The notes under the pieces are model-generated. The model searched no databases and was not told where the DNA came from. It worked only from the letters and a program-made list of their open reading frames with translations. The position numbers were made by a program, and so were the translations under genes. Shown piece after piece: positions 9,136 to 36,509 of a stretch of DNA of 64,000 bases. Positions within the stretch are counted from its first letter, which is position 1. Each line of letters begins with the position of its first letter. This DNA is from Thelephora terrestris. Taxonomy: Eukaryota; Basidiomycota; Agaricomycetes; Thelephorales; Thelephoraceae. The DNA lies in assembly GCA_015956445.1 (NCBI GenBank), contig WIUZ02000009.1, positions 186,001 through 250,000 of the forward strand. Reading direction: 5' to 3'.

Positions 9136-9155
9136 TGTCAGGGTTGTAGGCCTGC

Positions 9156-9779
9156 TTACTGTTTGTGGGGCGCTAGAGGATTAGCAGCTGGGTGCGGGGT
9201 GTCGGGTCTGGGTTTGAAGGGGGTTCCGGGCGTAGAGACGAGGAGAGGAGGAATGTCCAGAGAGAGAGGTGACTCTGTCTGATAAGGGTGGACGGGCGAG
9301 TGGTAGTCTTGGCAGAACTGATTGAGTTGCTGCACAAAGGGTTCGAAGTCTTGGTCGCTAAGACGTTCGAAGTTGACGAGATATTCTATGACTGAGTAAG
9401 GTAATTCAGTTGGGACTTCCCACCAGAGAATGATGATCGCAGGAGAGTGGGTATGGATGTTAGTAGTAAGATGAATACGTGGGGAGGGAAAGTAAAAGGC
9501 TGGGCTGATACTGAAGTAAACGGTCGCAATGACGCTCTCCGTAAGATCTGAATTCCAGAGGAATTGGTGATCTGCCCCTAGGAGAAAAGGAGGAGTGGTG
9601 ACTCCGGCGTCAAGAGCTGCAAAGGGGCGGTAGTAAGGGAAATGGGTGAGTAAACCAGTTGTTCGGTTTACTTGGAGACTTCTAATGAGTTTATACTCCC
9701 AGATAGATCTCCTGGCGTCAGGAACGTTCGGTCGTTGAACTGGACTGGTAGAGGGAAAAGGGTTTGGGGGACTGAACAT
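9156..9779 (-). CDS. U1 gene P1, unknown protein
   Basis: A 207-codon frame, closely matched by the copy in U2 at 34837-35598 (long identical runs such as ARRSIWEYKLIRSLQVN). No domain is recognised. The middle is hydrophobic/aromatic (FPYYRPFAALDAGV, IILWWEVPTELPYS); the tail is Pro/Ser/Thr-rich. A second, upstream coding stretch reaching 9919 exists in both copies, so the real start may be further up. Two copies staying this similar suggests either youth or selection. Confidence 0.5.
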   Translation of the reverse strand: MFSPPNPFPSTSPVQRPNVPDARRSIWEYKLIRSLQVNRTTGLLTHFPYYRPFAALDAGVTTPPFLLGADHQFLWNSDLTESVIATVYFSISPAFYFPSPRIHLTTNIHTHSPAIIILWWEVPTELPYSVIEYLVNFERLSDQDFEPFVQQLNQFCQDYHSPVHPYQTESPLSLDIPPLLVSTPGTPFKPRPDTPHPAANPLAPHKQ

Positions 9780-9919
9780 ACACTAGCAGGAGAATTCCTG
9801 CTTGAATGAGTCAGGTAAGGTAAGACGTGAGAATAATTTCTCAGCTTACTTTGTTTATTCAAGTTGTGGGTAGAGGGGTACAGAAGAGATTGAGAATGGG
9901 GAAAGAAAGAAGCGAACAC

Positions 9920-10436
9920 TCTTCCTTATATACCCAATCCTCTACAGGAGTCATTATTTTACAACGAGTCAAACAGGAATCAACATGGTCTGTGCGTAGT
10001 TTAGGGTAGGATGGACGAGTCAGGGGAGTGGGACTTTGGAATGACAATTGACGAAATGAAAATAGGAGAACAATAGTGAAGGAGTCATTAGGAGCATAAT
10101 GGGGATTTCTCATGATCGATGGTGGTAATAGAAGACTGGTGGGGATTTCTCACGATCGATGGGGACTTCTCTTGTTTCACAGTAGCAGTAGAAGACGGAT
10201 GGGGATTTCCCGTGATTGATGGGGATTTCTCTGAATTGATAGGATTGTGATTGGGGCTGAGGGTTCGTTTCTCCTAAATGGGGACGTTAATGAATAATAG
10301 GTTATTGTTTTCCCCTTTTGGTTTCTTTTGAGTCAGGATGTATTTAAGTCAGAGGGATTAATGGTCGTTCCCCCCCATCGTCTCTTTTCCACTCCCACCA
10401 ACCAACCACTACTCTCTCCCAAACATCATCACCACC
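9920..10436. promoter_or_regulatory. U1 divergent promoter region with iterated motif
   Basis: It lies between the 5' ends of P1 (minus) and P2 (plus). At about 10096-10243 a unit of the form GGGGATTTCTC-GATCGATG recurs four to five times in imperfect copies. A TATATAAG lies near 9924-9931 in the P1 direction, and TATTTAAG near 10330 in the P2 direction. The same layout is seen in U2 (34323-34836). Confidence 0.55.
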
Positions 10437-10561
10437 ATGTCTGCTTTCATTGCCAGCAACGCTGTACTTAATGCTGCTGCCACCCCCTTTACTCCATCTT
10501 TTGAGACAGATGCTCCCTACGATGTGGAGCAACACTTGTACGACACCCCCGCCAACATCGC
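10437..10561 (+). pseudogene. U1 gene P2, first part
   Basis: Begins at the ATG 10437 after ACCACC and runs to the point where U2 is inserted. The remainder of the gene lies at 35624 onward. The start matches the U2 copy on the other strand at 34322. No function is known. Confidence 0.55.
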
Positions 10562-11489
10562 TGTCACGAACGCGTGACATAGTAGCCAAGATCACACAAG
10601 TAATTCAAGACATTGGTCTTATTCGCAGTAGTAATAGTACAAGGGTGGCTAACAAGAACTACAACTTCAGACAAGAACAAACGGATCTACGTCACACGTA
10701 CAGTCCTGAGGAAACAGGCAACGGTGAGCAAAGTGGTGAGGGTTGTGTATACTCTCAGGGCAATACGAATACGCTCGCGTCACCGGATCCTGCCAACACT
10801 CCCGGCACCCCAATACATCATGAAACAAGCTATCATGCATCTCCCGCTTCACGTCCGTCAACGCCGCGCTCACTAATGCAAACCCATAGCGGTCCTGGAG
10901 ACCCGCTACCTCCACTTTCAGCTTCATTCGAACCTGACGTGATTTGTCGGAGGGACGACAGCGTTGACCAGTACGAGTCATCGGATTCTTGCGCTCTTTC
11001 TTCTTCTGGGTCCTCACCACCATCTGACGACTCGGAACAGGACTCCAAGGAGGGGACTGAGGAAGAGGGACTCCCTGGTCCTGGAGATGGCGGAGGGACG
11101 ACGGGGGAGTGAGGAGCTGCATCGGTGCAGTACGCTCCATGGCATCTATGACCGAAGTACCTGAGGAGAGATTCCTGGAAAGGTTTCCAGTGGTCCAAAG
11201 CAAAGTGAGAGAAGTCTTCATTAAGACTGTTGACCGCGACATACATGACATCCATCCTCTTCTCCAACTTCAAGATCCTGTCCTCCCTCTCTCGCTCCAT
11301 CGCATCCTGCAGGGGAGTAACCCCGGGAGCCCACTTTTGAGTCTTGTTAGGGTCTTCATACCCAGCTTGCTCCCAGAACTCGGCAGGAGCATTGTGAGCA
11401 GTCAGGAAGTCAATTGCGACCTCGTTGTCGCGAGCAATGTTGGCGGGGGAGTCGTAAAGATGTTGCTCCACGTTGAAAGGAGCATCCGT
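10562..11489 (-). pseudogene. U2 gene P2, larger part
   Basis: Minus-strand copy of the P2 body, abutting the left LTR of R at 11490. It shows the same features as 35624-36402: the coiled-coil-like EREREDRILKLEKRMD, FGHRCHGAYC, an acidic Ser-rich linker, and an overlapping second frame with CRECW and HNPHHFAHRC. Confidence 0.5.
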
Positions 11490-12967
11490 TGTCGGACATA
11501 AGAACAACCATGGTATTATTTATGATAATTCACCACCAAAAGATTAGATTAGATAAGATTACAGTCTTATCAGATAAAGATTAGATTAGATTAGGACAAG
11601 AAACTCATGGACTGTTACAGAATGTTCAGGAACACCCTGGAATGCGCCGGAACATCCTGGAACTTGCCGGAATGTTCTAGAAGGAGACAGAATGTCACAC
11701 CCCATGTGACACTGGTCACGCCTTTTTTGACATTTTAGTCACACTTGTGACACAAGTCACACGTAGAAATAGTTTAGTTTACCATAGAACAAGATGGAAG
11801 CAGATGGAATGTTCTAGAATAATCTTAGTTGTAAAAGTATATAAGAAGCTCAACCACAGTTCTAAGCAAAAAGGAACCTCCCCCCTCCCTTTCACCCCCC
11901 CAACCTTTGACCTCAGGAATTCCCTTTCAAGGAATTTCACCCTACCATTTTACCCCTATCCTTTCACCTCTACCCCTTTACACCCCTTATCCTTAGAACT
12001 GATTGGAAGAGTGATTTTCAGTAATCATACTCCAGTTCAGCCCATACCTTTGTGTGAAGTATATCTAAGCTTGATTGACCTTAGTACACTTGACGTTTGA
12101 GAGTATCCCGATCTCTGTAATTGCTGAAGGCAGTGCCCTTCAGGCAGAGAGTACTCCAACTCAGACTAGTGTTTGACTAAGCTACATCCAAATTAGTGAA
12201 GTACCACATAGGCCCCGACATACCACGTTTTCAGAAGTCCCCAGAAGTTTAACCCGTTTCAGATTAGCATTACGTTGCTCACCATACGTTTCATTTACCC
12301 GACAGATATCAGCAGTTATAGGACGTTCCCTAGGAGTTATTGAACATATCAGCACAACCATCCACGACATATCAGCATAGCCACAGGCGTAACTGCACAG
12401 CCGCAGCACAGCCTCCTTACACAGCCTGTTACATAGCCCATTTACACAGCCTCGTTACACAGCCTGTTACACAGCCCATTGCACAGCCCATTACACAGCC
12501 TTCTGCACAGCCCCAGAACACAGCTCAAAGACATATTTACAGTGCACAGCATTCTACACAGCCTTCTTCACAGCCTCATACACAGCCTCAATCATATCAG
12601 GTTCACACATCAATATCTTCATTCCCGATCATCAGCGTAGATCAGGAACTCCATTCTTATCACGATCAGCAACCCCCTTTACATTCCAAACAGGTGTTTG
12701 CCCAGTAGGAACGATAGTACAACAAGGTTAAGGATAGTTGAACCCCTCTGAACAATACTGAAGGACAAAAGACAATCCTTCAGCGAACTCATCAGGACAA
12801 GGAGCTGGAAAGTGCGAAACCCCGCCCACCCTGTGGAGTTGTTAGTCGGGAACACTGACTTCTCAATCAGCCTACTTAGTTGTTAACACTTAGCTTCTAA
12901 GTAAACCAACGAGGACTAGTAAGAGTTCTTATAGACCTCTACACTACAACCTCCAGCAAACTTGACA
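11490..12967 (+). repeat. R left LTR
   Basis: TGTCGGACAT...CTTGACA, 1478 bp. It matches 32730-34243 apart from about three substitutions and 36 bp of minisatellite. A TATA-like tatataag near 11840 (also in the right LTR) is a candidate promoter. Confidence 0.93.
12394..12590 (+). repeat. CACAGCC minisatellite in left LTR
   Basis: Imperfect 11-12-bp units built on ACACAGCC(Y) are repeated through this stretch (for example ttacacagcccattgcacagc). Confidence 0.8.
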
Positions 12968-12969
12968 AC

Positions 12970-12987
12970 TGGAGCCCACGGCGAGGG
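12970..12987 (+). promoter_or_regulatory. Primer-binding-like site of R
   Basis: TGGAGCCCACGGCGAGGG begins two bases after the left LTR. A TGG start at this place is what a tRNA primer-binding site would show. The tRNA was not identified. Confidence 0.45.
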
Positions 12988-13074
12988 GCTTCAATAAAAC
13001 ACACCTTTACCCTTACACACATCATTCCTACTACAACACCTCTATCAATCCCCAACATTACCCCCTCTACAGCC

Positions 13075-14094
13075 ATGACTAATCTCTCAGACACAGAGAA
13101 CGAACAAACCCCCTTAATTGGAATGGGAGAATTCCCCCCCCAATCCAATTCCTACCTTGAATTACCATCTCCGAACAAATCACGAGCACCACCAACCTTT
13201 ACAGGAGCCCCTAACACTTTGGAGCCCTTCCTGGAAAATTACAATCATCTCTGTAAACGATATGATGTGACATCGTCCAAGGAACAGTACCAAGGACTCA
13301 TCCGATATTGTGACCCAGGGATAGCCAATTTACTGCGAACCTGGCCATCACATGCTTATAGGGATTATGCAACTCTATTGGTAGAACTTGAGTATTTCTT
13401 TGGAGACCGGCAAGGATGCCTCAACATGGGAAAGATTGAAGCCTTTACCACCAAATGGAGAGCACGTAAAATGTGTACCTTGGACCAGTTCAAATGTTAT
13501 CAACTTAAATTCCATCAGTTGATTGGACGGGCCAGGGAAAAGAAGAAGATCTCAACCAGAGATGTCAATAGATATTTCTGGGAAGGTCTGCATGCATCCT
13601 TCAGGCACCAAGTAGAAGCTCACATGAGAATAGCAAATCCCCTTTTGGACGTAACAGTACCATTCAGCATAGCCGAGATAGTTGAAGGAGCAGGCACTGC
13701 ACTAAACCCCAACAGGTTCGATCAGCATCTTACTACCAAAGGTGGATATCGATCCTCAGAGTCAGACTCAGATGAAGGTGGACCCGGCAGTTCAGTGAAG
13801 ATCTTAGGATATGTCTCTGATGATGAATCAGAAAATGAGCCAAAATCTCTCATCCAACCTAAGCAGCTCCCCACGCCTCCCAAGACACCCCCTAGGACCA
13901 CATTAAAAACCAAGAAACATAAGGCAAAGAAAGATGAAGAATTTGACAGCCTGGTAGAGGACCTGAGTAAATTGAGTGTAAATGAACCAGCTTATTGGGT
14001 CAAGTATGTTCATTTTGTTCAGCTCTACCCACATCTCCAAGGCATAGTAGAGCCGCCACATAGTAGAGCCACCAATTCGACAGAATTCAGCTAG
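13075..14094 (+). CDS. R gag-like ORF
   Basis: A 339-codon frame starting shortly after the leader. Residues about 45-215 resemble the capsid part of fungal Gypsy-type gag (FLENYNHLCKRY, WPSHAYRDYATLLVELE, then a helical QFKCYQLKFHQLIGRA region). A Ser/Asp-rich, then Lys/Pro-rich tail follows. Element part; fossil. Confidence 0.65.
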   Translation: MTNLSDTENEQTPLIGMGEFPPQSNSYLELPSPNKSRAPPTFTGAPNTLEPFLENYNHLCKRYDVTSSKEQYQGLIRYCDPGIANLLRTWPSHAYRDYATLLVELEYFFGDRQGCLNMGKIEAFTTKWRARKMCTLDQFKCYQLKFHQLIGRAREKKKISTRDVNRYFWEGLHASFRHQVEAHMRIANPLLDVTVPFSIAEIVEGAGTALNPNRFDQHLTTKGGYRSSESDSDEGGPGSSVKILGYVSDDESENEPKSLIQPKQLPTPPKTPPRTTLKTKKHKAKKDEEFDSLVEDLSKLSVNEPAYWVKYVHFVQLYPHLQGIVEPPHSRATNSTEFS

Positions 14095-14179
14095 ACCTTA
14101 TCAGACAAGAGGAGGCTTCCAAAGGGATTCCCCACCCCGTCAGCCGTTCAACAATCCTTCACGACCACCATTCAATCCT

Positions 14180-14854
14180 ATGTCTCGACCCCCTTTCAAT
14201 CCTACCTCTCGACCCCCATTTAACCCTACTTTCCAACAAACTCCCAACAACCATCTCAGACCAAACTTTAACCCCCCATCACGTCAAACATTCACACCTC
14301 CCCAACAAACATTTTCAGCAGCAACAGGGTCCAATGCAATTCAGCCTGACATAACCTGTTTCGGATGCGGACAGAAAGGTCACCAAATAAGGGAATGCCC
14401 AGAGCTCAATCAGCTCATTCAAACTGGTCATATAATCAGAAGCCCTGGTGATGGAAGGATCCGATGGCCAGATGGCTCTAGGATTTTCCGAATTGATAAT
14501 GAAACTTGGGTGCAGACCATAATGCGTAACATACCAGCAGAAGTTAATTATGCTGAGGCTATACCACATGTACCTAATTTGGAGACTGCATGTAACTATG
14601 TAGGAGTGGACAGAGAGGATGATGATGCATGTACAGATGAACAGGAAGAAGAATTAGGATGGACCTCTGGGGAGGTAAGTAACTGTCAAGCTTTTGGAGT
14701 AGAAAGAACAGAGCCTGTCAGCAAAGCCCATAGGAAGAAGGTACAACTTGTCTCACCTAGCAGACCCCAGAACCCCCCATTCCGAATAATGCTCACATCA
14801 ACAGCAACAAGACGAGGCAGATCAGGCCTCCCACTAACCCCAACCAGGACATAG
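14180..14854 (+). CDS. R ORF with CCHC zinc knuckle
   Basis: A Pro/Asn/Phe-rich repeat region (RPPFNPT units) is followed by one retroviral-type zinc knuckle, CFGCGQKGHQIREC, at about residue 60. This is the nucleocapsid-like part of the element and lies between the gag-like ORF and the protease-bearing frame. Confidence 0.7.
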   Translation: MSRPPFNPTSRPPFNPTFQQTPNNHLRPNFNPPSRQTFTPPQQTFSAATGSNAIQPDITCFGCGQKGHQIRECPELNQLIQTGHIIRSPGDGRIRWPDGSRIFRIDNETWVQTIMRNIPAEVNYAEAIPHVPNLETACNYVGVDREDDDACTDEQEEELGWTSGEVSNCQAFGVERTEPVSKAHRKKVQLVSPSRPQNPPFRIMLTSTATRRGRSGLPLTPTRT

Positions 14855-14865
14855 TTGAAGGAAAA

Positions 14866-17800
14866 ATGAACAACCAAATCCTTCCAATGGCAGTTGACAA
14901 GGAGGACATTGCAAAGCCACCTAATCGTCTCAGGAAGAACACGACGCATTTGGAGAACCCCAATGTTCCTAAAGTCCCCAATATCAGGACTAAGAAGAAG
15001 CCAGACAGTTCAGCCATCACCAGCAAAATAATGAATGCCAACATTACCCTAACTGTACAGGAAGCCATTGATGGTGCGCCTTCCTTGCGACGAGACCTTG
15101 TTGGCGTGATGAAACAAGGGACTGAGGTTTCTTCCCAAGTTCAGGAGAAAATCAGCTTTCTTGGCGAAGTGATAGAGTACGAACAGGACCCATTAGAAGC
15201 TACAGATCAGGAAATATCAACCCAGGAACCAGAATCTGAGACAGATGAGGAAACTGACCCCACTGATGAGGCAGTACTAATGACAGAACCAAGAGATGGT
15301 TTGATTAAGATTCCAGTGAATGTGGAAGGTACTATGATGACAGGAGTATTCGACAGTGGATCCCAACTCAATATTATCAGCCAGAGGTTGGTAGAAAAAG
15401 CAGGAATACCTTGGTCAAGATCTAGACGTTACCAGATCCCGTTAATCTCAGTTGATGGTAATATTACCAAGCCTGCTGGGATGATACCTAGAGCACAGCT
15501 GATAATGGAAACTGATACTGGACAGGTCAGGACCATTTCAAATTTACATGTAAAACACGATGCAGGATTCCAGCTATTACTCGGACGAGAATGGGGAGTA
15601 AAGAACAAAGCCAATTGGATTGAAGATGAAGAAAGACCTCATATTACAATTCAAACCAATAAGGGAGTGCGGAAAATCAGGCCTCTCCCAACCCATATCT
15701 GGCCCGGACAGCGTGGAACAAACCATGGACAACATAAGAAGAAGACAAAGCAATTTAATGCTACAGTATTTGCAGCAGGAAGGAAAGAAGGAATTGAAGA
15801 AGGAGAAGTACCGGACAGCGAGAATGATCCCGCGATCGGGAGCAATAAGGCACACATTGATACAGCGGCTCTGGAGGAACGAGAAAACGACTTCGAGAAC
15901 TCACCGTTCTTGATCGGAGCCGAGGACCCACCAACCCCCGCGCAAAGAAGACAGGAAATAGAATTTGATGAAGAAGTTGATCGGATTGGAACAGGTGACG
16001 AGGAAGGACGGATCGGAGAGGAAGAGGAACTAGACGTAGCCGAAGAAGCGCGCGGGAAAGGAAAAGAAAGGACCTTAGGTTCGGACTCGGGTTTATATGA
16101 GCCGGAAAATAAATGTACCATTCGGTCGGAATTGCGCGAAACATTTATTAAAATGGTTCAAAACGGAGTATCGAACAACGAGTGGAATAAGCTACAAGAG
16201 TTGGAGCAACGAGAGATGGAATGTGACAATACACAATGGCAGAAAATGGAGCACGCGCACTCAGACGACGAGAAGACTAATTCCACAGGAGACTCAGACC
16301 CAGAAAACGCCCGGTTCCAAACCCCACCTGACCCCGCAAGCTCTCAACCCTCGAACACCCTACCAACCCCTCAACCCAACATATCCCGAAGTCCGCCGGC
16401 CTCAAGGAAGCAAAAGAGAACCCTGGAAAGCGGAGGTCAGTCACCAGTAACCAGGGTAACCCGATCACGACGAATACGACGGAGGACCGAACGCACAAAG
16501 GGCGAAGAATATCAACGAATTTTGAGAACTTACCAAAGGAAGGAACAGATGGAGCGGAAACGGATCCATGGAAGAGGAGCCGCATTGGCGGCAGAATTAC
16601 ACGCCTTCGCGGCGGAAATAGTTCCAGAAGAGGAAACACCCGAGGAAAGCGCTCGAGATACGAGACGCCACGAGGATGTTAAAGTCTACACCCAGTCAGA
16701 TAAGGAATCAGAAGGAAAAGATGGATATACCTTAGCACTTGCATTGGACATTTTAACCTCGGATGACGAAAGGAATGGTCCTAGCAGGCCCAGAAGAGAG
16801 AAAGTTTGCTCCTATCCAGTATACGTGAAGAACGAGAGCATCGAGCTGGAACCGACCAAAGAATGGGACCGGGATGTAATGGCAATCAAATACGAGGGAA
16901 CGGAACTTACCACAAAACCCAAAAGAATATTAGAAAGTGGTCTATATGGAAAAGACCACCCCGGAAACAATAGCGATAGGCCCAGGAACGAGCTACTTGA
17001 GGTTGAAAAGAATGTCGAAAGAAAGTCAGTACCCGATCGCTCGTGCACCAAGAATGAAGATGAGCACATAGAACCTACTTTGCAGTACGAAAGAATGGAT
17101 ATGAATGGATGTGTCGAAGAAAACCGCCCTGGAAATGAAAAACTGGAAGGCCGGAGAAGTGAGGTGAGCAAAGAGCAGAAGACACTAACCCACAAAGGTA
17201 GTACACAGCATCTCACACCGCCGACGGACATCACGTACCCCGTAACCGACAGCAGAGGTCCAGACGCCCCCAGAACAGATCGACTAGGCCAAGACCACCC
17301 TAGGCCTGGCCAGAACGACCCCAAAACCACAATCAACAAAAAGGAAGATAGGGAAGAATGGACCTCTGCAACGAACGAAAGCCCTAGATATGTTGAAGCC
17401 AGAACCGAACGTCAAATGGTACATGATCAAATGGAACCACAACTTAGCTCGGAAAGTGTCCAGACCGTGGACAAAGGCCAACGGATAGAGGCGAACGAAG
17501 ACGAGCCTGATCCGAAGGTTAGCACAAGTACCGTTAAAGGCAGAGTAGAGTTGGGCGTACGAAATGATTGCGCATCAATTTCATTAACAAACCCGAAAAA
17601 GGAAAGTGTGGGTCCCATGATGAGACGCGACATAGAAAGGAAGAGTGGAAAGCCTGAAAGAGGCAGCTATGGGACCAAAGGAGATGACCGCAATAATATT
17701 AGAAATATTGCACAACCTTCAATGACCATCGAGCAATGGCGGCAGTCTCAGAATAGCAAACCCGCTCTGAGAAAAACCGAGCCCAACCTCCGACACAAAT

Positions 17801-20800
17801 ATCCTGGCAAGTTTCAGAACGACCCATACGAAGGAATGGAAATGCTGGGAATAAAATACGTACCTCAACCACGGGCAGTCCCAACAGGATTACTGGCATC
17901 CAAGGAAGTAACTATCTTCGCGGATGACGACATCCGGCACCAACGGCATTTCTTTGCCCGAGATGTGACCCTGGCAACGGTTGACCCATTCGGAAACCCG
18001 GTCTTCTTTCACGGAAATGCGACGATCCAATTAGATGAACCTGGAGAAGGATCGACAATACATGTACCTAAACGACGCAAGGTGAATAAGGCTCGAAAGT
18101 ACATTTTTGGGAAGAAGAAAGGCGTACCATTGAAAGAGCAAGCAAAGGAGTTCGGGTCCGAACAGACCAGCGAGACGACCCATGGAAACGAGATAACATG
18201 GTATGTACTAAACCAAGAAGAGTTAGAGGCTGTTCTGGGTGAATTAGCGGACGATCCGATTACTCAAAATGAAGAGACGCGAACTTACACGATATGGAAA
18301 ACGGAGGACGGTACAATCAAAGCACAACTTGGCCTGAAGACGAAGGATGGAGGTAATGAACCCTCAACCCAGGCCCACAATGAAAGTCCCCTAGAAAACA
18401 CGGACAAAGAGGTTAGTGGAGGAATGAAAATAACGGCCGAAGAACAGGACCAGGCCCTTACCATAAAAGGAAGTAACCCACAGGCCCCCGATCACATGCC
18501 TAGGCCGATGAACACGAAAAATAATACTGGAGATGAAGGAACCTACGGGAAGGAAAGCGAAATACAGGAGAATGTTAAGCACCCTGGAAACAAAGAAACT
18601 AGGAGACAATTGGAGGGCAGTGAACATTGCGCAAGTATAAAAACGGCTGGACCAACTTACAGTGAAAAATCAACCCCCTCCCCTCTCACAACTCAGATAT
18701 CAGCCAATACGGATCCCAAAACAAATGGTAGGGGTGGTTTTAAGTCCTGCAAGTGTTCAGCACTGACAGCGACCCCACAGGCCCAAGAAAACCCTGCCCG
18801 GGAAGTCAGACACCAACGATACGGCTGCGAACCCGAGGTACCAGTACGGGTCAACGTGCCATCCGAAGGAGAGTACCTTCGCATAGACGTCCCACCCCCG
18901 GAAGACCAAAACCCAGGAATGATGGTAGCCGCCCACCTAGTCTGCGTCAAGGAGGATATCTTGGCCCCAGACGAGCACTCATTCTTCGCGTTCGGCGCGA
19001 CAATTGTCGTCGGCGAAGAAGGGTGCCAGCAACCATTCGTGCACCACGGACAGGCTTATGTCCACCTCTTCAACTCAAGTTCGGACGACCTCAGTAATCA
19101 GCCCCCTCCGAATCACGAGCAACACGGCGCGACAGCGACCACCCCTGATGAACCTCGCTATGTCAACCCGAAGGTGCTTGTCAACGAGGACATAGATTCC
19201 CCTCGTACTTCCCCATTCCCCGGACAATCAATTGCTGGAGTTGTGCCTCGCGTACGTCAAATGTTTTCTGAGTCTAGGAGAGTTGGTGTTAACGATGACA
19301 ACGGACAGCCGTTAGCTGTCGAAGTCGCCATCAAGCAACTCAGAGTGTTGATACCCGAAGAAGACCCGATGAAGAAGCCAGCAGAACGAGGAAATGCAAG
19401 AGATTGTGTGCCTGATGGAGTGGGTGAGTGCACCCCCAAAATAACCCGAAATTCGCCATATGAAGAATTTAACTTAGCTGTCGTAGGGCGGGAGCCGTCC
19501 ACACCGATTCATAACCCCCAGACCACCCAGAATCGGGTTCCAAGTGACCTGTTGGCTGTCCCGAGACATAACGTGGACATCAGTGTTTTTCCCTGTACGA
19601 TCCTTGAAGACAGTCAGACTAAAGTTTTCAAAGACATGGACAACGAACTTACCTTAAAGGGTCCCCCGATTGCGACGCTTGACCCAGAAGAAGATATGAT
19701 GCCTGACTCCCCTCCAGCACTAGACTACCCTGACAACATCATGGTTGACGAACTAGCCGAGGATGACGAGTTGATGCTTGACATTCCGGGTCTGCACAAA
19801 AGTACTGATGCCCCGCCAAGTGCGAAATCCCTTGATCCCACCAAGGATGAAGACGACCCCACCACCGATGAGGACCTCCGCCTTATAACTCGAATTCAGG
19901 AGAACTTACTGTACCTGTCGCCCTACATCGACCGCATACAGGAGAACGGCGAGAAGCATGAGGTCTTCGAGTGCTTGGCGAAGCTCGGCCTCCTGCAGAT
20001 TGTCTACGAGATGACGCTGGCGAAAGACCAAGGAGAAATGAGAGGAAAGCAGTACTGGGGCCGACGCATCGCCCAGATCTTGGACGAAAGGAAGACGGAA
20101 GTGGAAGAATTTATAGAGGAAAAGCGACGCGAGGGAAAGATAGCCAAGAAGCCACGTCCGGTCACAATAATCAAGATTGAAGACGAGGTCGAGGCACCCC
20201 CTTACTCACCAGTTGAATGGTTACCACAGGAATCTGATTACGTCCCCAAAAGCCCAGCAGCAGGCGTTGTCGAAGACCCCCGTTACGTCCCAAGAAGCCC
20301 GGAACCCGAAGCAACAGAAGCACCTGTCAAACTGTCAAAACCAGACGCCGATCCCCTGACCGACCTACAGCAGCAGGTCTTGGGGCTCGAAGAAAGGTTT
20401 GATGGGTCCATTGATGATCTCAAAACACGACTGAAGGAGCTCGAAACTCAAGTATTTTCGGATGGATGTCTCCTGACGGAGTTGAACTGGAAGTCAAATG
20501 AGTTGAAGAAGTGGGAAAATAAGGGATGGTCAAATAACAAAAAGGCTCACCGAAGAAATAACACGAAAGGTAACCCTCCTTATCAGACCAGATCTGTTAC
20601 CGCAGCGTCTGCAGAATCAGTGAAGGAGATGCGGAGGCAGTTGACGAAACTAGGTGATCGGATCAGGAAGGTTGAGGTTGACATACAGATCGCACAAGAG
20701 GAGATCAAGATCACCAACGATAAGATAAGGAAACTTTCGATGCTGGATTCACAGGTGAAGTTATCGGCCCAAAACCTGGATGACCTACGACGTTCCCAAG

Positions 20801-21045
20801 CCGGCATGAACAGTGTTCTCATGTCGGAAATCGCCTCCCTCAAGCTAGGACTTGGACCCCGTCTTGAACAGCAACTCAAGGATCACGCATTCGAGATCAA
20901 CACCCTCACCAGCCGGTTCCAGCAACTTTATCATGTTGTGGTCAACACCCTCTACCCTGATTACCCGAAGACCTCAGACCCCAGGAACGCCAACCAGACG
21001 TCCCCGAAGATTACCTCAAACCCCAAAACGGCCGCTGTTTTCTAA
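14866..21045 (+). CDS. R 2059-codon ORF: retropepsin-like domain plus unknown long region
   Basis: Residues about 145-265 look like a retropepsin: VFDSGSQLNIIS with the catalytic DSG near residue 161, and later LLLGREW. The following some 1700 residues are acidic, Lys/Glu/Pro-rich and mostly disordered-looking. Two blocks resemble each other, at about residues 1000-1062 (HFFARDVTL...VFFHGNATIQL) and about 1345-1405 (SFFAFGATIV...FVHHGQAYVHL). The last 230 residues have long heptad-like Leu/Lys/Glu stretches (coiled coil). No reverse transcriptase or integrase motif is visible. A frame this long staying open suggests recent function. Part of an LTR element; function of the long region unknown. 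Confidence 0.65.
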   Translation: MNNQILPMAVDKEDIAKPPNRLRKNTTHLENPNVPKVPNIRTKKKPDSSAITSKIMNANITLTVQEAIDGAPSLRRDLVGVMKQGTEVSSQVQEKISFLGEVIEYEQDPLEATDQEISTQEPESETDEETDPTDEAVLMTEPRDGLIKIPVNVEGTMMTGVFDSGSQLNIISQRLVEKAGIPWSRSRRYQIPLISVDGNITKPAGMIPRAQLIMETDTGQVRTISNLHVKHDAGFQLLLGREWGVKNKANWIEDEERPHITIQTNKGVRKIRPLPTHIWPGQRGTNHGQHKKKTKQFNATVFAAGRKEGIEEGEVPDSENDPAIGSNKAHIDTAALEERENDFENSPFLIGAEDPPTPAQRRQEIEFDEEVDRIGTGDEEGRIGEEEELDVAEEARGKGKERTLGSDSGLYEPENKCTIRSELRETFIKMVQNGVSNNEWNKLQELEQREMECDNTQWQKMEHAHSDDEKTNSTGDSDPENARFQTPPDPASSQPSNTLPTPQPNISRSPPASRKQKRTLESGGQSPVTRVTRSRRIRRRTERTKGEEYQRILRTYQRKEQMERKRIHGRGAALAAELHAFAAEIVPEEETPEESARDTRRHEDVKVYTQSDKESEGKDGYTLALALDILTSDDERNGPSRPRREKVCSYPVYVKNESIELEPTKEWDRDVMAIKYEGTELTTKPKRILESGLYGKDHPGNNSDRPRNELLEVEKNVERKSVPDRSCTKNEDEHIEPTLQYERMDMNGCVEENRPGNEKLEGRRSEVSKEQKTLTHKGSTQHLTPPTDITYPVTDSRGPDAPRTDRLGQDHPRPGQNDPKTTINKKEDREEWTSATNESPRYVEARTERQMVHDQMEPQLSSESVQTVDKGQRIEANEDEPDPKVSTSTVKGRVELGVRNDCASISLTNPKKESVGPMMRRDIERKSGKPERGSYGTKGDDRNNIRNIAQPSMTIEQWRQSQNSKPALRKTEPNLRHKYPGKFQNDPYEGMEMLGIKYVPQPRAVPTGLLASKEVTIFADDDIRHQRHFFARDVTLATVDPFGNPVFFHGNATIQLDEPGEGSTIHVPKRRKVNKARKYIFGKKKGVPLKEQAKEFGSEQTSETTHGNEITWYVLNQEELEAVLGELADDPITQNEETRTYTIWKTEDGTIKAQLGLKTKDGGNEPSTQAHNESPLENTDKEVSGGMKITAEEQDQALTIKGSNPQAPDHMPRPMNTKNNTGDEGTYGKESEIQENVKHPGNKETRRQLEGSEHCASIKTAGPTYSEKSTPSPLTTQISANTDPKTNGRGGFKSCKCSALTATPQAQENPAREVRHQRYGCEPEVPVRVNVPSEGEYLRIDVPPPEDQNPGMMVAAHLVCVKEDILAPDEHSFFAFGATIVVGEEGCQQPFVHHGQAYVHLFNSSSDDLSNQPPPNHEQHGATATTPDEPRYVNPKVLVNEDIDSPRTSPFPGQSIAGVVPRVRQMFSESRRVGVNDDNGQPLAVEVAIKQLRVLIPEEDPMKKPAERGNARDCVPDGVGECTPKITRNSPYEEFNLAVVGREPSTPIHNPQTTQNRVPSDLLAVPRHNVDISVFPCTILEDSQTKVFKDMDNELTLKGPPIATLDPEEDMMPDSPPALDYPDNIMVDELAEDDELMLDIPGLHKSTDAPPSAKSLDPTKDEDDPTTDEDLRLITRIQENLLYLSPYIDRIQENGEKHEVFECLAKLGLLQIVYEMTLAKDQGEMRGKQYWGRRIAQILDERKTEVEEFIEEKRREGKIAKKPRPVTIIKIEDEVEAPPYSPVEWLPQESDYVPKSPAAGVVEDPRYVPRSPEPEATEAPVKLSKPDADPLTDLQQQVLGLEERFDGSIDDLKTRLKELETQVFSDGCLLTELNWKSNELKKWENKGWSNNKKAHRRNNTKGNPPYQTRSVTAASAESVKEMRRQLTKLGDRIRKVEVDIQIAQEEIKITNDKIRKLSMLDSQVKLSAQNLDDLRRSQAGMNSVLMSEIASLKLGLGPRLEQQLKDHAFEINTLTSRFQQLYHVVVNTLYPDYPKTSDPRNANQTSPKITSNPKTAAVF

Positions 21046-25732: not shown

Positions 25733-25942
25733 CATCTGGAAAAACCTTGCCGACTAGACGACACTAGGCGGCACTATCTGAAGGTACGACAGCATAGCCG
25801 TGGTATTCATCAACTACACATCAGGGATCGCTGATCCGAACTCCCAATCTTGCCGCCTGTCAAGGAGAGCAGACAGCTCACTAGAGGGAAACCGACCTTC
25901 ATTAGGGTAAAGCCACCACTGGTACATTATCTTGCACGGAAA

Positions 25943-29177: not shown

Positions 29178-29304
29178 TGTGGTCGAGAAATAAGCCTAGT
29201 AATTTTATAGGAATTTGCAAAAAAAATCCTTTTTCGGAGCCAGAAAGTGTGACATCGCATAAGAACTGGTGGAAACGAAGTTGACTTCTCTCTGACCCAC
29301 CACC
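29178..29304. promoter_or_regulatory. Plavaka divergent promoter
   Basis: 127 bp separate the transposase start (29177, minus) from the companion start (29305, plus). An AT-rich stretch (gcaaaaaaaatcc) lies inside. It must serve both genes unless upstream exons exist. Confidence 0.5.
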
Positions 29305-31297
29305 ATGGCGAAAGGAGGGAAGGCTGGCAAGAAGAACACAAAGGCTGCCCCACCCGCGACCACCCGTTCTACGCGGTCAACAACCGGCCAACAAAAGAGG
29401 AAAAGAGCCTTGATGAATCCATTGGAACAGGGTGGGGAGGTCGCGTCTAATAAGAGTAAGTGAATCTTTTCTCGCCGTCTACACCAGAGCTCAATGTTCC
29501 TGGGTTAGAAACACATCTCTCCAATTTGCCAGATGCTTCGAGCGACAAGGCTGAAGACAAAGAGGGTGAGCTTGGCACTCGGTTCCTCCCAAGCCAACAC
29601 TCACGTTCATCATATAAGCCGAGAGCGCTGTGGTCCAGCAACCTGTGAGGGCTGCACCAGTGCGCCCGAATCTTTCATCATCCCTAGAGAGCAGTGAAGA
29701 AAACGAGGGTGAGTGTTTTGGCAAATTGCCAGACTCTGCGGTGAGTGGCTAACTCATCACTCAAGCTCAAGAAAGCGATGGACTCGTCGCCAGTGATGAA
29801 GAGCCAGACGTGCTGACAGCTAAGCAAATAAATGCTGAGGTGAGGAAATCGATTTGAACGGTGACAGCGCAATTGAATTGTACAACAAAAGCAGCCGATT
29901 CCGGTCCTAAGCCGTGGCTCGGGAACAAAAACAAAAACTGCCAATGCGGGAAGGGCCGGGAAACGTGCGGCGCAAGCCATGAACGAAGTATGTTTTTTCT
30001 CTGTGTATAAATTAGTTGAGCTCATGTTTGCTGACACAACGCACTCAAATACCTGTGTGTTAAGGTCCCGTCTATAGTGGGATCGCAACAACCAATTGAG
30101 GAAGGCAATCAAGACTCTGCCCTTGACATGGCGCTGCTCAACGTTCTACCGATTGTCTCGGCTCCCATCCCTGAAACCATGCCTCCTGGCGCTCCGCCCA
30201 TCGTCTCAGTTCCTGTCCTTCACCCAACGTTGCCTGATGTTGCACCCGTCATACCGGCTCCCGTCCCCGCACCCGTTGTGATTCTACCCGCGGTTCTCCC
30301 TGCAGCACTCCCCCTTCCACAACCCAGGAACACCTGGTTGGCCGCAACAAACCTCATCATTGGGGATGATGGTCGACTCCAGCAGTCTGCTCAGAGTCCC
30401 GAGATCAGCAAATATATCTCCAAGACGGTTCGATTGGCGAGCTTGAAAGTCTTCTTCATCAACGCATTTCCGGACCCAGTAAAGCAAAATGACTGGCTCA
30501 CCCAATCCCTTGTCACTGTGCTCCAAGAACATGCAAAAACGGACCAAGTGGCCCATCAAGTCAACCTACGCGCCCAACAGGACCATCAGTACATGACCGC
30601 GCTGATGAGCATGGTATGTTGCTGGGCTGACGCACCTTTCTGTCGGTTGGATTTCTGACTCGTCTCAGACAACAGGTAGATGGTGTAATGCCCGCCAGCC
30701 TATAATTGACAACGCGAGGGCATTGATCAAGTCGAAGGAGTGTACCTATGGGTTGGATGGATTGGACCAAGCGGGTGTGGTTGCCAAGGTGGAAAAGTTG
30801 CTTGATCACGAAGCGTTCCATTTTGGGAAGGCAAACTCGGTCAGTCTCCCAGCGCGCTTTGGGACAATTCGCTCAACAATTAATTGGCTTTCAAGGGAGC
30901 ACCAAACAGGGGAGCTCCATACCAGCACCCCGAGATTTCGTCCTGCATTTCCCGCTTTTTCAAGGGTCGCAATAGTTATGGTGTCGAATATTCAACACAA
31001 TTCCACCACGGGAAGTACGGCGTCCAAATGCCACAGTCGATTGTCGCATTAGTTACGACAGGGGTGAACTATCTATCCCACCAAGCGATGGTCCCACGTA
31101 CTGACCCTCAACGACAGATTGAAGCGGCCCTCCGCGAATGGGCGACAGGTGTGCTAGTCAAGCGCCCGTTCACGGAAACCGACCATCGTACAACTTATCG
31201 AGAGCACCTCAAGGCCATGCAAATGGCAAGAAACTCGGAAAACGGTGAATCTAAATATGAGCGTATGTTATCAACAATCTACATTCAAACCATGTGA
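29305..31297 (+). CDS. Plavaka companion gene, DUF6532-like
   Basis: Starts at ATG 29305 (ACCATGGCG) with a basic Lys/Arg-rich N-terminus (KGGKAGKKNTKAA, nuclear-localisation-like). Several short exons follow, split by introns such as the one opening at GTAAGT 29457. A main exon near 30065-30613 is Pro/Val-rich and then helical (ISKYISKTVRLASLKVFF). The next exons carry QPIIDNARALIKSKE, YQHPEISSCISRFFKGR, ALVTTGVNYL and EAALREWATGV, ending at the TGA 31295-31297. From memory this order matches the DUF6532 proteins that accompany Plavaka elements. Its role is unknown; by analogy with second genes of CACTA elements it may bind the ends. The exon list is approximate. Confidence 0.7.
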
Positions 31298-31848
31298 GTG
31301 TACTCGCCGGCTTGTGACTGCGGCGAAACCGACTGAATCTTACATAAAGGAAATGCCTCGATGGCGGCAAACTGACTAGCACCCCAACCACCACCATGTC
31401 AAGGAAGAAATTAGTGATAGACATAGATGCAATGGAGGAGTAGAGGGTATCGCGTAGATATTTCCCGCAGTATTGCTCAAATTTTGAATGTCAAGTTTGT
31501 TCGGAATACCACCGAGAGAGAACGCCGTAATCGTGCTATTGAGTCATATACTAGGGGTATATACTGACTATTGGACTATCTACTGTTCAAATATGAGAGC
31601 GTTAGGCGAAGACTACGAGCAGTAGTATGAGGGATATACATTAGAACTATCCCTCAGCTACGCGACTGCATTATACGAAGGATAGCCGAAGAATGCGGCG
31701 GTACAGGAGGGGTATAGAGGAACTATTGGACGGCTATGCCCATAGGAGGAGTGCTAACCCCGTGGCTATGGCCTCTGAACAATACTTGATCGAGTAGCAA
31801 CGCATAGGCTCGCGTAGCTCCACCTAGTCGGCAAGGTTTTTCCAGATG
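31298..31848. other. Plavaka right subterminal region
   Basis: 551 bp after the companion gene, AT/GA-rich with loose repeats (ctattggact, ggggtatat) and ending in the inverted repeat. No gene is seen. Subterminal repeats are common transposase-binding regions. Confidence 0.5.
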
Positions 31849-32161
31849 CACCCCACCAAACCTAGACAAATACGACAGTTATGACACCATATGTCTCATC
31901 GATTACATGGGACAAGACTGGAAAACCGATGTTGAGGCCCTGGAATACCTGAAGACCAAGAAGAGTGCACGGGAATTGATTTCACGCCAAGCCTGGACTC
32001 TCACGTATCAAGGAGTGGGAGTAATGTATCTCGTCCATCCCCTGTTCGAAGTACCCCTAGTCCTTGGCCCCTTTGACACTGAAGCAAGTGTATTACGAGT
32101 AGTTACAAATCGGTTGGATACACTAGAGAAGATAGCAGCCAGAACTACCAGGTATGCTTAG
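31849..32161 (+). CDS. R small ORF A2
   Basis: Open from the Plavaka junction: TPPNLDKYDSYDTICLIDYM, then EALEYLKTKKSARELI, YLVHPLFEVPLVLG, RVVTNRLD. It is a paralogue of A1 (23353-23640). Plavaka landed just upstream of the conserved part, so its 5' side is separated. Element part; function unknown. Confidence 0.5.
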
Positions 32162-32336
32162 ACACTTCAATCTCCCCATTCAAAGCCTTCACAAGCAACC
32201 AACCAAAATCACAGGTTTAGGAAAAAGCCGGCTCCTCACGGGACCAAAATGATCGAGGTGATCGCAAACAAGTCTGCCAGCACATCACCCTCAACGGCAA
32301 GACCATCTCAAAACTACACCCTACCTCTCCTTCAGC

Positions 32337-32678
32337 ATGCGAGTCCTCAATTATCACGTCATTCCACAAGGACTGGATACTTATTGGTCAACCGCCCTCG
32401 AACTTTACTGCTATCTGTATAGCAATGAAAGCGAACGCACCCGCCTACAGACAATAGTCAATCAGTTAGGAGACCATAATGGCCAACAATTCATCATCTA
32501 CCACCGCTGCGACCCCTTTTCCATACGCCTCACAGTTGGGCAAACCGACGAGTCATTCGTACAGCACATTGGATGTCTCCTCCAAGGTGTAGGGTTCGGA
32601 ATCCCTCAAAACCCTTTCATTCAAGGTATTTTCAGCTACCTTAGGTGCATTATCATAAATAAGTCATTATTGTTCTAG
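32337..32678 (+). CDS. R small ORF B2
   Basis: 113 codons from ATG 32337, ending about 50 bp before the right LTR. Pattern: STALELYCYLYSNES, GQQFIIYHRCDPFSIRL, TDESFVQHIGCLL. This matches B1 in spacing (YYFYN..., VIVYFRH...SPISI, TEDYVQDLFG). The A-B order is thus present twice in R: A1-B1 and A2-B2. Confidence 0.5.
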   Translation: MRVLNYHVIPQGLDTYWSTALELYCYLYSNESERTRLQTIVNQLGDHNGQQFIIYHRCDPFSIRLTVGQTDESFVQHIGCLLQGVGFGIPQNPFIQGIFSYLRCIIINKSLLF

Positions 32679-32729
32679 ACTAGTTGGATGATTGCGATCA
32701 GGGACGATCGTTTAAAAGTTCCCCGCGGA

Positions 32730-34243
32730 TGTCGGACATAAGAACAACCATGGTATTATTTATGATAATTCACCACCAAAAGATTAGATTAGATAAGATT
32801 ACAGTCTTATCAGATAAAGATTAGATTAGATTAGGACAAGAAACTCATGGACTGTTACAGAATGTTCAGGAACACCCTGGAATGCGCCGGAACATCCTGG
32901 AACTTGCCGGAATGTTCTAGAAGGAGACAGAATGTCACACCCCATGTGACACTGGTCACGCCTTTTTTGACATTTTAGTCACACTTGTGACACAAGTCAC
33001 ACGTAGAAATAGTTTAGTTTACCATAGAACAAGATGGAAGCAGATGGAATGTTCTAGAATAATCTTAGTTGTAAAAGTATATAAGAAGCTCAACCACAGT
33101 TCTAAGCAAAAAGGAACCTCCCCCCTCCCTTTCACCCCCCCAACCTTTGACCTCAGGAATTCCCTTTCAAGGAATTTCACCCTACCATTTTACCCCTATC
33201 CTTTCACCTCTACCCCTTTACACCCCTTATCCTTAGAACTGATTGGAAGAGTGATTTTCAGTAATCATACTCCAGTTCAGCCCATACCTTTGTGTGAAGT
33301 ATATCTAAGCTTGATTGACCTTAGTACACTTGACGTTTGAGAGTATCCCGATCTCTGTAATTGCTGAAGGCAGTGCCCTTCAGGCAGAGAGTACTCCAAC
33401 TCAGACTAGTGTTTGACTAAGCTACATCCAAATTAGTGAAGTACCACATAGGCCCCGACATACCACGTTTTCAGAAGTCCCCAGAAGTTTAACCCGTTTC
33501 AGATTAGCATTACGTTGCTCACCATACGTTTCATTTACCCGACAGATATCAGCAGTTATAGGACGTTCCCTAGGAGTTATTGAACATATCAGCACAACCA
33601 TCCACGACATATCAGCATAGCCACAGGCGTAACTGCACAGCCGCAGCACAGCCTCCTTACACAGCCTGTTACATAGCCCATTTACACAGCCTCGTTACAC
33701 AGCCTGTTACACAGCCCATTGCACAGCCCATTACACAGCCCATTGCACAGCCCATTACACAGCCTTCTGCACAGCCCCAGAACACAGCTCAAAGACATAT
33801 TTACAGTGCACAGCATTCTACACAGCCTTCTTCACAGCCTCATACACAGCCTCATACACAGCCTCAATCATATCAGGTTCACACATCAATATCTTCATTC
33901 CCGATCATCAGCATAGATCAGGAACTCCATTCTTATCACGATCAGCAACCCCCTTTACATTCCAAACAGGTGTTTGCCCAGTAGGAACGATAGTACAACA
34001 AGGTTAAGGATAGTTGAACCCCTCTGAACAATACTGAAGGACAAAAGACAATCCTTCAGCGAACTCATCAGGACAAGGAGCTGGAAAGTGCGAAACCCCG
34101 CCCACCCTGTGGAGTTGTTAGTCGGGAACACTGACTTCTCAACCAGCCTACTTAGTTGTTAACACTTAGCTTCTAAGTAAACCAACGAGGACTAGTAAGA
34201 GTTCTTATAGACCTCTACACTACAACCTCCAGCAAACTCGACA
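32730..34243 (+). repeat. R right LTR
   Basis: TGTCGGACAT...CTCGACA, 1514 bp. It is longer than the left LTR by exactly 24 + 12 bp of CACAGCC-type repeat. No clear polypurine tract precedes it. Confidence 0.93.
33634..33866 (+). repeat. CACAGCC minisatellite in right LTR
   Basis: Same array as in the left LTR, with one extra 24-bp and one extra 12-bp unit, showing unit gain or loss since insertion. Confidence 0.8.
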
Positions 34244-34322
34244 CCATCTCAGAAGACGGGGAGAAATCGAAGGGAGTAGCCGCAGCGTTGAGCAAGGTGT
34301 TGTTGGCAGCGTAAGCAGACAT
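34244..34322 (-). pseudogene. U2 gene P2, first part
   Basis: The short 5' part of P2 on the minus strand starts at 34322 and reads into the right LTR of R at 34243. It matches the start of the U1 copy at 10437. Confidence 0.5.
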
Positions 34323-34836
34323 TTAGCAGAGGGTGATGAGAAGGAAGTGTAGTGGTTTGGTGGGAGTGGAAAAGAGACGATGAGGGAAACAATCATTAAT
34401 TCCCCTGACTTAAATACATCCTGACTCAAAGGAAACCAAAAGGAGGAGAACAATAACGCATTATTCATTGACGTCCCATTTAGGGTAAACGAACCCTCAA
34501 CCCCAATCGCGATCCCATCAATTCAGAGAAATCCCCATCGATCATGGGAAATCCCCACCCGTCTTCTACTGCTACCGTGAAACAAGAGAAGTCCCCATCG
34601 ATCACGAGAAATCCCCACCAGTCTTCTATCACCGCCATCGATCATGAGAAATCCCTATTGTGCTCCTAATGACTCCGTTACTATTGTTCCCCTATTTCAT
34701 TTCGTCATTTGTCGTTCCAAAGTCCCACTCTCCTGACGTGTCCAACCTACCCTAAACTACGCACAGACCATGTTGATTCTTGTTTGACTCGTTGTAAAAT
34801 AATGACTCCTGTAGAGGATTGGGTATATAAGGAAGA
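34323..34836. promoter_or_regulatory. U2 divergent promoter region with iterated motif
   Basis: Counterpart of 9920-10436. Imperfect repeats of ATCGATC-GAGAAATCCCC (reverse complement of the U1 unit) lie at about 34526-34655, and a TATATAAG at about 34823-34830 precedes the P1 start at 34837. Confidence 0.55.
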
Positions 34837-35598
34837 GTGTTTGCTCCTTTCCTTCCCCATTCTCAATCTCTTCTGTACTCCTCTACCCATAACCTGAATA
34901 CAAGTAAGCTGAGGAATCCTCCTCACGTCTTACCCCTTTCTGACTCATTTCAGCAGGAATTCTCCTGCCAGTGTATGTTCAGCGCCCCCAACCCCTTCTC
35001 CTCTACAAGTCCAGTTCAGCGACCAGTCGTCCCTGACGCTAGAAGATCTATCTGGGAGTATAAACTCATCAGAAGTCTTCAAGTAAACCGAACCACCGGT
35101 TTACTCACCCATTTCCCTTACTACCGCCCCTTTGCAGCTCTCGACGCCGGAGTCACTACTCCTCCTTTTCTCCTAGGAGCCGATCACCAATTCCTTTGGA
35201 ATTCAGATCTCACTGAGAGCGTCCTCGCGACTGTTTACTTCAGTATCAGTCCAGCCTTTTATTTCCCTTCCCCGCGTGTTCACCTCACCACTAACATCCA
35301 CACTCATTCTCCTGCTATTATCGTTCTTTGGTGGGAGATCCCTACTGAATTACCTTATTCGGTTATAGAATACCTCGTCAACTTCGAACGCCTTAGCGAC
35401 CAAGACTTCGAACCTTTCGTGCAGCAACTCAACCAGTTCTGCCAGGACTACCACTCGCCCGTGCACCCTTATCAGACAGAGTCACCTCTCTCTCTCGATA
35501 TCCCTCCTCCCCTCGTTTCCACACCCGGAACCCCCTTCAAAACTAGACCCGATACTCCTCACCCCTCCACTAATCCTCTAGCGCCCCACAAACAGTAA
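34837..35598 (+). CDS. U2 gene P1, unknown protein
   Basis: An open frame of 253 codons, the longer-looking form of the P1 gene of U1. It starts right behind the TATATAAG box and ends 20 bp before the U2 terminus. The core shared with U1 starts near residue 47. No known domain is recognised. The segment FPSPRVHLTTNIHTHSPAII followed by an acidic/aromatic part might be distantly related to the small R-encoded ORFs (tentative). The C-terminal 40 residues are Pro/Ser/Thr-rich. Confidence 0.5.
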   Translation: MFAPFLPHSQSLLYSSTHNLNTSKLRNPPHVLPLSDSFQQEFSCQCMFSAPNPFSSTSPVQRPVVPDARRSIWEYKLIRSLQVNRTTGLLTHFPYYRPFAALDAGVTTPPFLLGADHQFLWNSDLTESVLATVYFSISPAFYFPSPRVHLTTNIHTHSPAIIVLWWEIPTELPYSVIEYLVNFERLSDQDFEPFVQQLNQFCQDYHSPVHPYQTESPLSLDIPPPLVSTPGTPFKTRPDTPHPSTNPLAPHKQ

Positions 35599-35623
35599 GC
35601 AGGCCCACAACCCTGACAATCGC

Positions 35624-36402
35624 CCATGACAATCAGGTGGCGATAAATTTCCTGACCGCTCACAACGCTCCTGCCGAATTCTGGGAACAGGCCGGGTACG
35701 AAGATCCCCGACCTGCTAGGCCTCTGGTTGAGGCTAGACATCCCGGAGCCGTCCTTCTGTTGGACACCATGGAGAGAGAACGGGAGGATCGGATTGCGAA
35801 GTTGGAGAAGCGTGTGGACCTCATGTATGTCATCATGAATAGTTTGAATGATGACTTCTCTCACTTTGCTTTGGAACATTGGGGACCTTTCCAGGCATCT
35901 CTCTTCCGATATTTCGGACACCAGTGCCATGGGGCTTATTGCACCGACCCCCCTTGCAAGTCCCCAGTCGTCCCTTCGCCACCGCCAGGATCAGGGCGTT
36001 CCTCTCCCTCCATCCCCTCCCTGGAGTCCTGCCCCAGTTCGTCAGATGGTGGAGAGGTCCCAGAAGAAGAAGAACCGCAAGAGTCCGATGACTCGTTCTG
36101 GTCAACGCTGTCATCCCTCCGACAAGTCACGTCAAGTTCGGATGAAGTTGAAGGTGGAAGTGGCGGGTCTCCAGGACCGCTATGGGTTCGCCTTAGTGAG
36201 CGCCGCCTTGTCGGACGTGAAACGGGAGATGCATGATAGTTTGTATCATGATGTGTTGGGGTGCAGGGAGTGTTGGCAAGATCCGGTAACTCGGGCATAT
36301 TCATATTGTCCCCAGAGCGTTCACAACCCTCATCACTTTGCTCATCGTTGCCCGATGGCTCAGGATTGTGCTTGTGATGTAGACCCCTTTGTTCTTGTTT
36401 AG
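35624..36402 (+). pseudogene. U1 gene P2, second part
   Basis: This is the body of P2 behind the U2 insertion. A charged coiled-coil-like stretch (EREREDRIAKLEKRVD) is followed by a Cys/His-bearing segment (FGHQCHGAYC) and a Ser/Pro/Glu-rich linker. A second, overlapping frame downstream holds a Cys/His-rich segment (CRECW, HNPHHFAHRC). Both frames are also open in U2. Family unknown. Confidence 0.5.
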
Positions 36403-36509
36403 TTTTGTAGTGTTTTTTAACTGCCTTTGTATTACTACGACGAATAAGACCAATGTCTTGAATTATCTGTGTGATTTTGAATACTATGTCACGCGTTCGT
36501 GACATCCAG

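Follow-up and report, generated by a model that had tools for sequence, protein, structure and literature searches.

The interval 9136-36504 of a 64,000-nucleotide stretch of the Thelephora terrestris genome (contig WIUZ02000009.1, positions 186,001 to 250,000; G000:C60:186001-250000; the whole stretch is called "the window" below) was described in an earlier note as an unclassified 2.3-kb element, here called U, with two divergent genes, P1 and P2. The outer limits given there are right, but most of the stretch is an inserted long terminal repeat (LTR) element: these ~27 kb form a three-layer nest, in which the LTR element interrupts the P2 gene of one copy of U (U2), and U2 itself sits reversed (minus strand) in the P2 gene of a second copy (U1, plus strand). 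With the inserts removed, U1 measures 2307 bp and U2 2303 bp, and they are flanked by 5-bp target-site duplications (TSDs) of TCCAG and ATCGC, respectively. The two copies thus agree in ends, size, length of the duplication and gene content, as the earlier note had reported.

U is a real mobile family, a single-unit DNA element of ~2.3 kb. A collection of copies in the 40.6-Mb genome (60 contigs) gave at least 231, 69 of which were seen with both genes; the figure results from merging, by position and orientation, the best 150 of 411 candidate places for P1 with the best 150 of 386 for P2. In the window copies one end carries the palindrome GTCACG-N4-CGTGACA and the other end does not, and the pattern is found at 221 forward and 220 reverse sites of the genome, compared to 0 and 1 for a reversed-pattern control. 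The ends had been called functionally different on this account; what stands is the difference in sequence, the two ends having only TGTCA in common (a 5-bp terminal match).

We fetched 40 loci, 20 of ~10 kb at the sites most similar to the initial 200 bp of U1 and another 20 of ~3.1 kb at P2 matches picked to cover the range of divergence, and examined 36 start-end pairs from them; nine A-starts without a B-end in the same locus were left out. The start reads TGTCA in 35/36 and the end TGACA in 35/36 pairs, and an exact 5-bp TSD is present in 29/36, where chance would give 1 in 1024 per copy. Among the remaining seven, L010 (an insertion of V, a second family treated below, in a U remnant) and L026 (the outer copy of a nest) are composites, L032 has a single mismatch, L038 and L041 have a mutated end, and L011 and L017 are unexplained. 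The two composites excluded, the length of U is 2224-2362 bp in 34 rows, and the median pairwise identity of the 34 aligned copies is 81.5%. For several insertions the flanks, when joined, correspond to uninterrupted paralogous sequence across the junction, e.g. L009 against L011 and L034 against L019; many of the comparison rows are internal repeats of a single target, and hence no total is given for these empty sites. The 29 TSDs follow no strong consensus, and insertions are found in other repeats and within U itself. No longer element that shares the U ends and carries its own transposase was present among the 36 pairs in the 40 loci, the two longer rows being the L026 nest and the V insertion of L010. 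Copies of U inside other U copies were encountered repeatedly and in both orientations (L020, L023, L026 and the window).

Both P1 and P2 are under purifying selection. Their variability in the 34 aligned copies lies mainly at third codon positions, and this, together with the ratio of nonsynonymous (dN) to synonymous (dS) divergence, rules out that they are chance open reading frames (ORFs). For P1, the stop codon of which is located 20 bp from the element end, there are 44 full-length matches, 38 without and 6 with a stop, while five additional BLAST matches are partial. Over 946 pairs the median dN is 0.065 and the median dS 0.90 (dN/dS 0.066); the closest pair has a dS of 0.056 and a dN of 0.009, and other close copies show a low ratio too (e.g. 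dN 0.008 at dS 0.11). Because the loci were selected by similarity, the sample is biased to good copies; among six full-length P1 copies present in loci that had been fetched for another copy (L012, L013, L014, L020, L026, L029), four are without a stop. The protein contains many acidic and His residues that are invariant in 38 copies.

P2 very probably makes two proteins, as judged from a predicted splice event and from the selection seen on the two forms. A 70-nt intron of the form GTAYGT...YYCAG is present in 34/34 sampled and 2/2 window copies; the two genes recognised in the earlier note are both there, but this intron had been missed. Its length is 1 mod 3, so that excision puts the reading into frame b instead of frame a. 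With positions given for copy L009, dN/dS is 0.127 in exon 1 and 0.079 in the intron when frame a is continued through it, and directly past the intron (1663-1740) it is 0.165 in frame a versus 0.83 in frame b. Between 1741 and 1860 the values are 0.60 (a) and 0.36 (b) with a dS of ~0.2 in both, compared to 0.42-1.03 in the single-frame stretches, and constraint here seems common to both frames. In the stretch from 1861 to 1998 selection is seen on frame b (0.146) but not on frame a alone (1.27), the frame-b dS of 0.38 being below the 0.96 found past the frame-a stop, and the frame-b end (2003-2164) has a ratio of 0.088. Across the selected single-frame stretches dN/dS is 0.08-0.17. Frame a is open beyond 1740 in 33/34 copies and frame b is open to its end in 31/34. 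Selection thus acts both on the read-through intron and on a frame that can be reached only by its removal, which argues for a product with the intron retained (P2a) and one with the intron removed (P2ab), predicted at 245 and 277 amino acids in copy L009. The predicted P2ab combines a basic stretch with a Cys/His-rich end, the latter invariant in 31 copies. A programmed frameshift was also considered, and was dropped once the intron had been seen in all 34 copies.

What could these proteins be? The earlier note had recognised no known domain in P1 or P2 and no transposase, reverse transcriptase (RT) or integrase motif, and our searches of four collections bear out both statements. In Pfam nothing rose over the cut-off for P1, P2a and P2b, including 38, 31 and 31 natural variants scanned singly; PHROGs and the PDB sequences gave chance-level matches only, and NCBIfam, which like PHROGs is built on prokaryotic and phage proteins, gave no match. 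None of these four collections yielded a transposase, RT or integrase (rve-type DDE) match in P1 or P2, and a Plavaka, KDZ, hAT or Harbinger transposase was likewise absent from U according to Pfam. P2b had weak Pfam matches to RAB3GAP2_C (best E 0.0035, 15/31 members) and DUF7500 (best E 0.021, 22/31), which were set aside as weak. A search of viral contigs, which detects close relatives only, found no stretch of P1. The structure prediction suggested earlier alongside the profile searches gave no usable result: the AlphaFold models of P1 (two window copies) and of the P2 C-terminus, with predicted local distance difference test (pLDDT) values of 36 and 46, respectively, are too poor to judge the fold. 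Literature searches returned no description of a U-like element, their scope being without Repbase, where an entry could exist.

Table 1. Layout of the nested U copies and the inserted LTR element (window positions)
Feature	Position	Strand	Basis or remark
TSD of U1, left (TCCAG)	9131-9135	.	sequence
U1 left part (P1 end, up to U2 insertion point in P2)	9136-10561	+	sequence
U1 start TGTCAGGGTTG	at 9136	.	sequence
P1 gene of U1, 207 aa	9156-9779	-	median dN/dS 0.066 over 44 copies
P2 gene of U1, start; ATG at 10437, interrupted by U2	10437-10561	+	
TSD of U2, left (ATCGC)	10557-10561	.	sequence
U2 part holding palindromic end and most of P2	10562-11489	-	
U2 palindromic end TGTCACGAACGCGTGACA	10562-10579	.	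sequence; 221 forward sites in genome
P2 of U2, exon 2 frame b: basic stretch and Cys/His-rich C-terminus	10670-11174	-	
Predicted P2 intron of U2, 70 nt, coding too if retained	11175-11244	-	
LTR element inside U2, not part of U	11490-34243	+	LTRs 11490-12967, 32730-34243
U2 part holding P2 start, intergenic region, P1	34244-35618	-	
P1 gene of U2, 207 aa, 95% identity to U1 P1	34975-35598	+	
U2 other end ...CAACCCTGACA	up to 35618	.	sequence
TSD of U2, right (ATCGC)	35619-35623	.	sequence
U1 right part (remaining P2 and palindromic end)	35624-36504	+	
Predicted P2 intron of U1, 70 nt; removal shifts reading frame	35825-35894	+	
P2 of U1, exon 2 frame b with stop	35896-36402	+	
U1 palindromic end TGTCACGCGTTCGTGACA	36487-36504	.	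sequence
U1 end CGTTCGTGACA	ending 36504	.	sequence
TSD of U1, right (TCCAG)	36505-36509	.	sequence

Between the divergent genes, at 10060-10260 of the window and in other U copies, there are imperfect tandem repeats (TGGGGATTTCTC..GATCGATGG) with a period of ~60 bp, which are possible regulator sites. U1 begins 273 bp past the end of a LINE-type (long interspersed nuclear element) ORF (5830-8862), and directly upstream of this ORF an inverted repeat occupies 4938-5776, with 376-bp arms that are 97% complementary and spaced by 87 bp. At the left edge of the window, 9-1548 and 2244-3777 are a duplication of 74% identity, and the overlapping ORF 1917-3509 has an F-box. To the right of U1, 37300-64000 is a tandem array with a unit of 3-4 kb (once nearly 7 kb) in up to six copies of 62-84% identity; none of its five ORFs scanned matched a Pfam family over the cut-off.

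The fetched loci contain a second family, V, of ~2.42 kb (TGTCAGGCCGACG...AATCATCACA), which starts TGTCAGG (TGTCAGGCC) and ends ATCACA. It was seen in 10/40 loci (L010, L013, L014, L018, L020, L023, L024, L033, L040, L048), and the complete copy L023:1099-3445 has a 5-bp TSD, CACGG. The V gene is intron-bearing and encodes a coiled-coil and acidic protein, which by eye looks unrelated to P1 and P2; the V exon scanned has no Pfam match. Its third exon occurs at no fewer than 150 genome places, and the intron before it seems to be kept, since an open frame of 167-169 codons is present in 144/150 rows. Copies of the coiled-coil exon, when compared, fall into two types, with 39-44 nonsynonymous differences between and 3-6 within types, as if they had been swapped by recombination.

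Several known systems resemble U in part. Transib elements make 5-bp TSDs, and both they and hAT5 have termini other than those of U and large transposases. Harbinger-type transposons have two genes, as U does, one of them perhaps for a DNA-binding partner, but they produce 3-bp TSDs and encode a recognisable DDE transposase. Miniature inverted-repeat transposable elements are defined by the lack of functional coding capacity, and U, with P1 and P2 under purifying selection, is not of this kind. A solo LTR of the Gypsy type is also a single repeat unit with TGTNR...CA-type ends and a 5-bp TSD; U differs from it by two conserved divergent genes, by the lack of any paired copies found, and by the lack of an internal flank common to the sampled copies. 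According to the account of Ginger elements in PMC2836005, the TGTNR terminal pattern is common to Gypsy LTRs and Ginger, TDD-4/5 produce 5-bp TSDs, and Ginger1 and Ginger2 (TDD) are single units with TGTNR ends, to which TGTCA at both ends of U corresponds. Ginger, however, has a Gypsy-like integrase and terminal inverted repeats of tens to hundreds of bp (at least ~40 bp serves to define the group), whereas the ends of U match over 5 bp and no integrase can be recognised in it. The account of IS481EU and IS3EU (PMC10045372) gives the former TGT...ACA ends as in U, but both encode a DDD/E transposase, and their TSDs are mostly 4 or 15-16 bp in IS481EU and 6 bp in IS3EU, which has TA ends. PlavakaA, described from Agaricomycotina, likewise has TGT..ACA termini, combined with 2-bp TSDs and a Plavaka transposase, and hAT5 matches U in its 5-bp TSD (PMC12730594).

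Which enzyme could join the ends of U? The TGTCA...TGACA ends of U, its precise insertion and its 5-bp duplications are such as a strand transfer of the retroviral-integrase type produces. The explanation that we put first, as a tentative one, is that U is a gene-carrying, satellite-like DNA element which needs its own proteins, while its ends are joined by an integrase-type enzyme supplied in trans. P1 and the P2 isoforms would bind and assemble U's own ends and regulate its activity, and the joining enzyme could be an integrase that LTR retrotransposons resident in the genome provide in trans. In that case U would be an integrase satellite that carries genes and not a plain defective copy. 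The combination of different gene sets and similar ends in U and V suggests a single shared enzyme in trans, which both families may use while contributing, from their own genes, proteins for recognising the ends, for assembly or for regulation.

A number of points weigh against an enzyme in trans. The main weakness is that there is then no obvious reason for the near-universal retention of P1 and P2, and the dependence in cis lacks an explanation. The LTR element nested in U2, with LTRs of ~1.5 kb (97.4% identical) and ends TGTCGG...TYGACA, has TGTC...GACA in common with U, but it is not a visible source of the enzyme, because a clear TSD is lacking and the genome-wide listing of rve (integrase core) matches includes none in this element. 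Its 2059-codon ORF (window 14866-21045) shows weak aspartyl-protease matches near the start and a strong A-over-T skew, with no RT or integrase matched, and a Plavaka transposase ORF lies within the element, in keeping with a basidiomycete genome. The LTR ends were read from this one family and single element: at two fetched integrase-bearing loci, the strongest rve match of the genome (a Copia-type element by eye) and another that is Gypsy-type by Pfam, clear LTR ends were not found. The TSD of V comes from one copy (L023), and the complete V in L010, within a U remnant, shows none. As a separate observation, the Gypsy-type element at L050:4831-5460 has an extra, unclassified ORF that lies downstream of the one for RT and integrase.

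Alternatively, U might be autonomous, a possibility we consider doubtful. P1 would be catalytic, P2ab its DNA-binding partner and P2a a regulator, that is, a new two-protein machine which by analogy would be organised like the two-gene Harbinger elements but unrelated in sequence. This is consistent with P1 being the most constrained gene, with its invariant acidic and His residues, and with the basic stretch and Cys/His-rich end of P2ab. On the other hand, neither protein matches any enzyme family, the AlphaFold models are too poor to lend help, and V pairs similar ends with another gene. That P1 and P2 constitute a previously unknown machine, in which a ~207-residue protein of unknown fold and an alternatively spliced partner carry out integrase-like strand transfer without a recognisable DDE enzyme, and which is old enough for a dS of ~0.9 between copies, appears rather improbable to us. 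Two of the options in the earlier note, the non-autonomous transposon and the new type that has an unusual enzyme, are compatible with these results, with the amendment that the genes are not mere passengers, since selection keeps both.

The earlier note's other option was a solo LTR that carries genes, i.e. U would be a gene-carrying LTR that is present only as solo copies after recombination. TG...CA ends and 5-bp TSDs are as in Gypsy LTRs, and long LTRs recombine readily, but pair distances, flanks and integrase positions together make this reading distinctly unlikely. For paired direct repeats of U around gag-pol, an excess of same-orientation pairs is absent: the pairs spaced by up to 25 kb number 77 in the same versus 81 in opposite orientation, drawn from at least 231 copies, and no pair distance recurs, since beyond 3 kb bins of 200 bp hold at most 3 same-orientation and at most 5 opposite pairs. 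A BLAST comparison of the flanks (600 bp or shorter) of the 36 elements gave 58 inter-element matches, only one of them in register, and this was one locus counted twice; no shared in-register internal sequence exists among these 36. The genome contains at least 144 rve matches, and set against the 231 U copies, 144 such matches are scattered in distance and strand, with three same-strand exceptions near 2.2 kb. In these, the U copies at C13:649041, C23 near 1079265 and C59 near 693939 are downstream of the match by ~2.2 kb, measured from centre to rve, in the position of a 3' LTR, which speaks for the solo-LTR origin. The three rve matches, however, differ in score and ORF length and do not look like a single family at a fixed distance, and the C13 copy, the one of the three that was read, is an insertion in its own right, because a separate 5-bp TSD (CCGCT) flanks it on either side. 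Spliced P2 copies, expected at some frequency for an RNA-mediated retroelement, are absent, with the intron in 36/36, an argument that is void if the genomic RNA is antisense to P2. Divergent genes under selection also speak against an LTR.

It is very improbable that individual U copies are kept by host selection or drive (e.g. as a toxin-antidote pair) and not by their own mobility, for although the low dN/dS even in close copies and the open frames of widely diverged ones would suit such a role, the 231 or more copies, the lack of a strong consensus in 29 TSDs and the fact that U has inserted into other repeats as well as into itself stand against it.

The classification of mobile elements is based on the enzyme that they use, and U is abundant and has no recognisable enzyme, yet its genes are preserved by selection; V has similar ends and a different gene. 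This leaves two possibilities: DNA satellites that carry genes are able to exploit integrases, or an unknown transposition enzyme exists. In addition, the strong constraint over many diverged copies in one genome raises the question of what binds each DNA copy to its own proteins.

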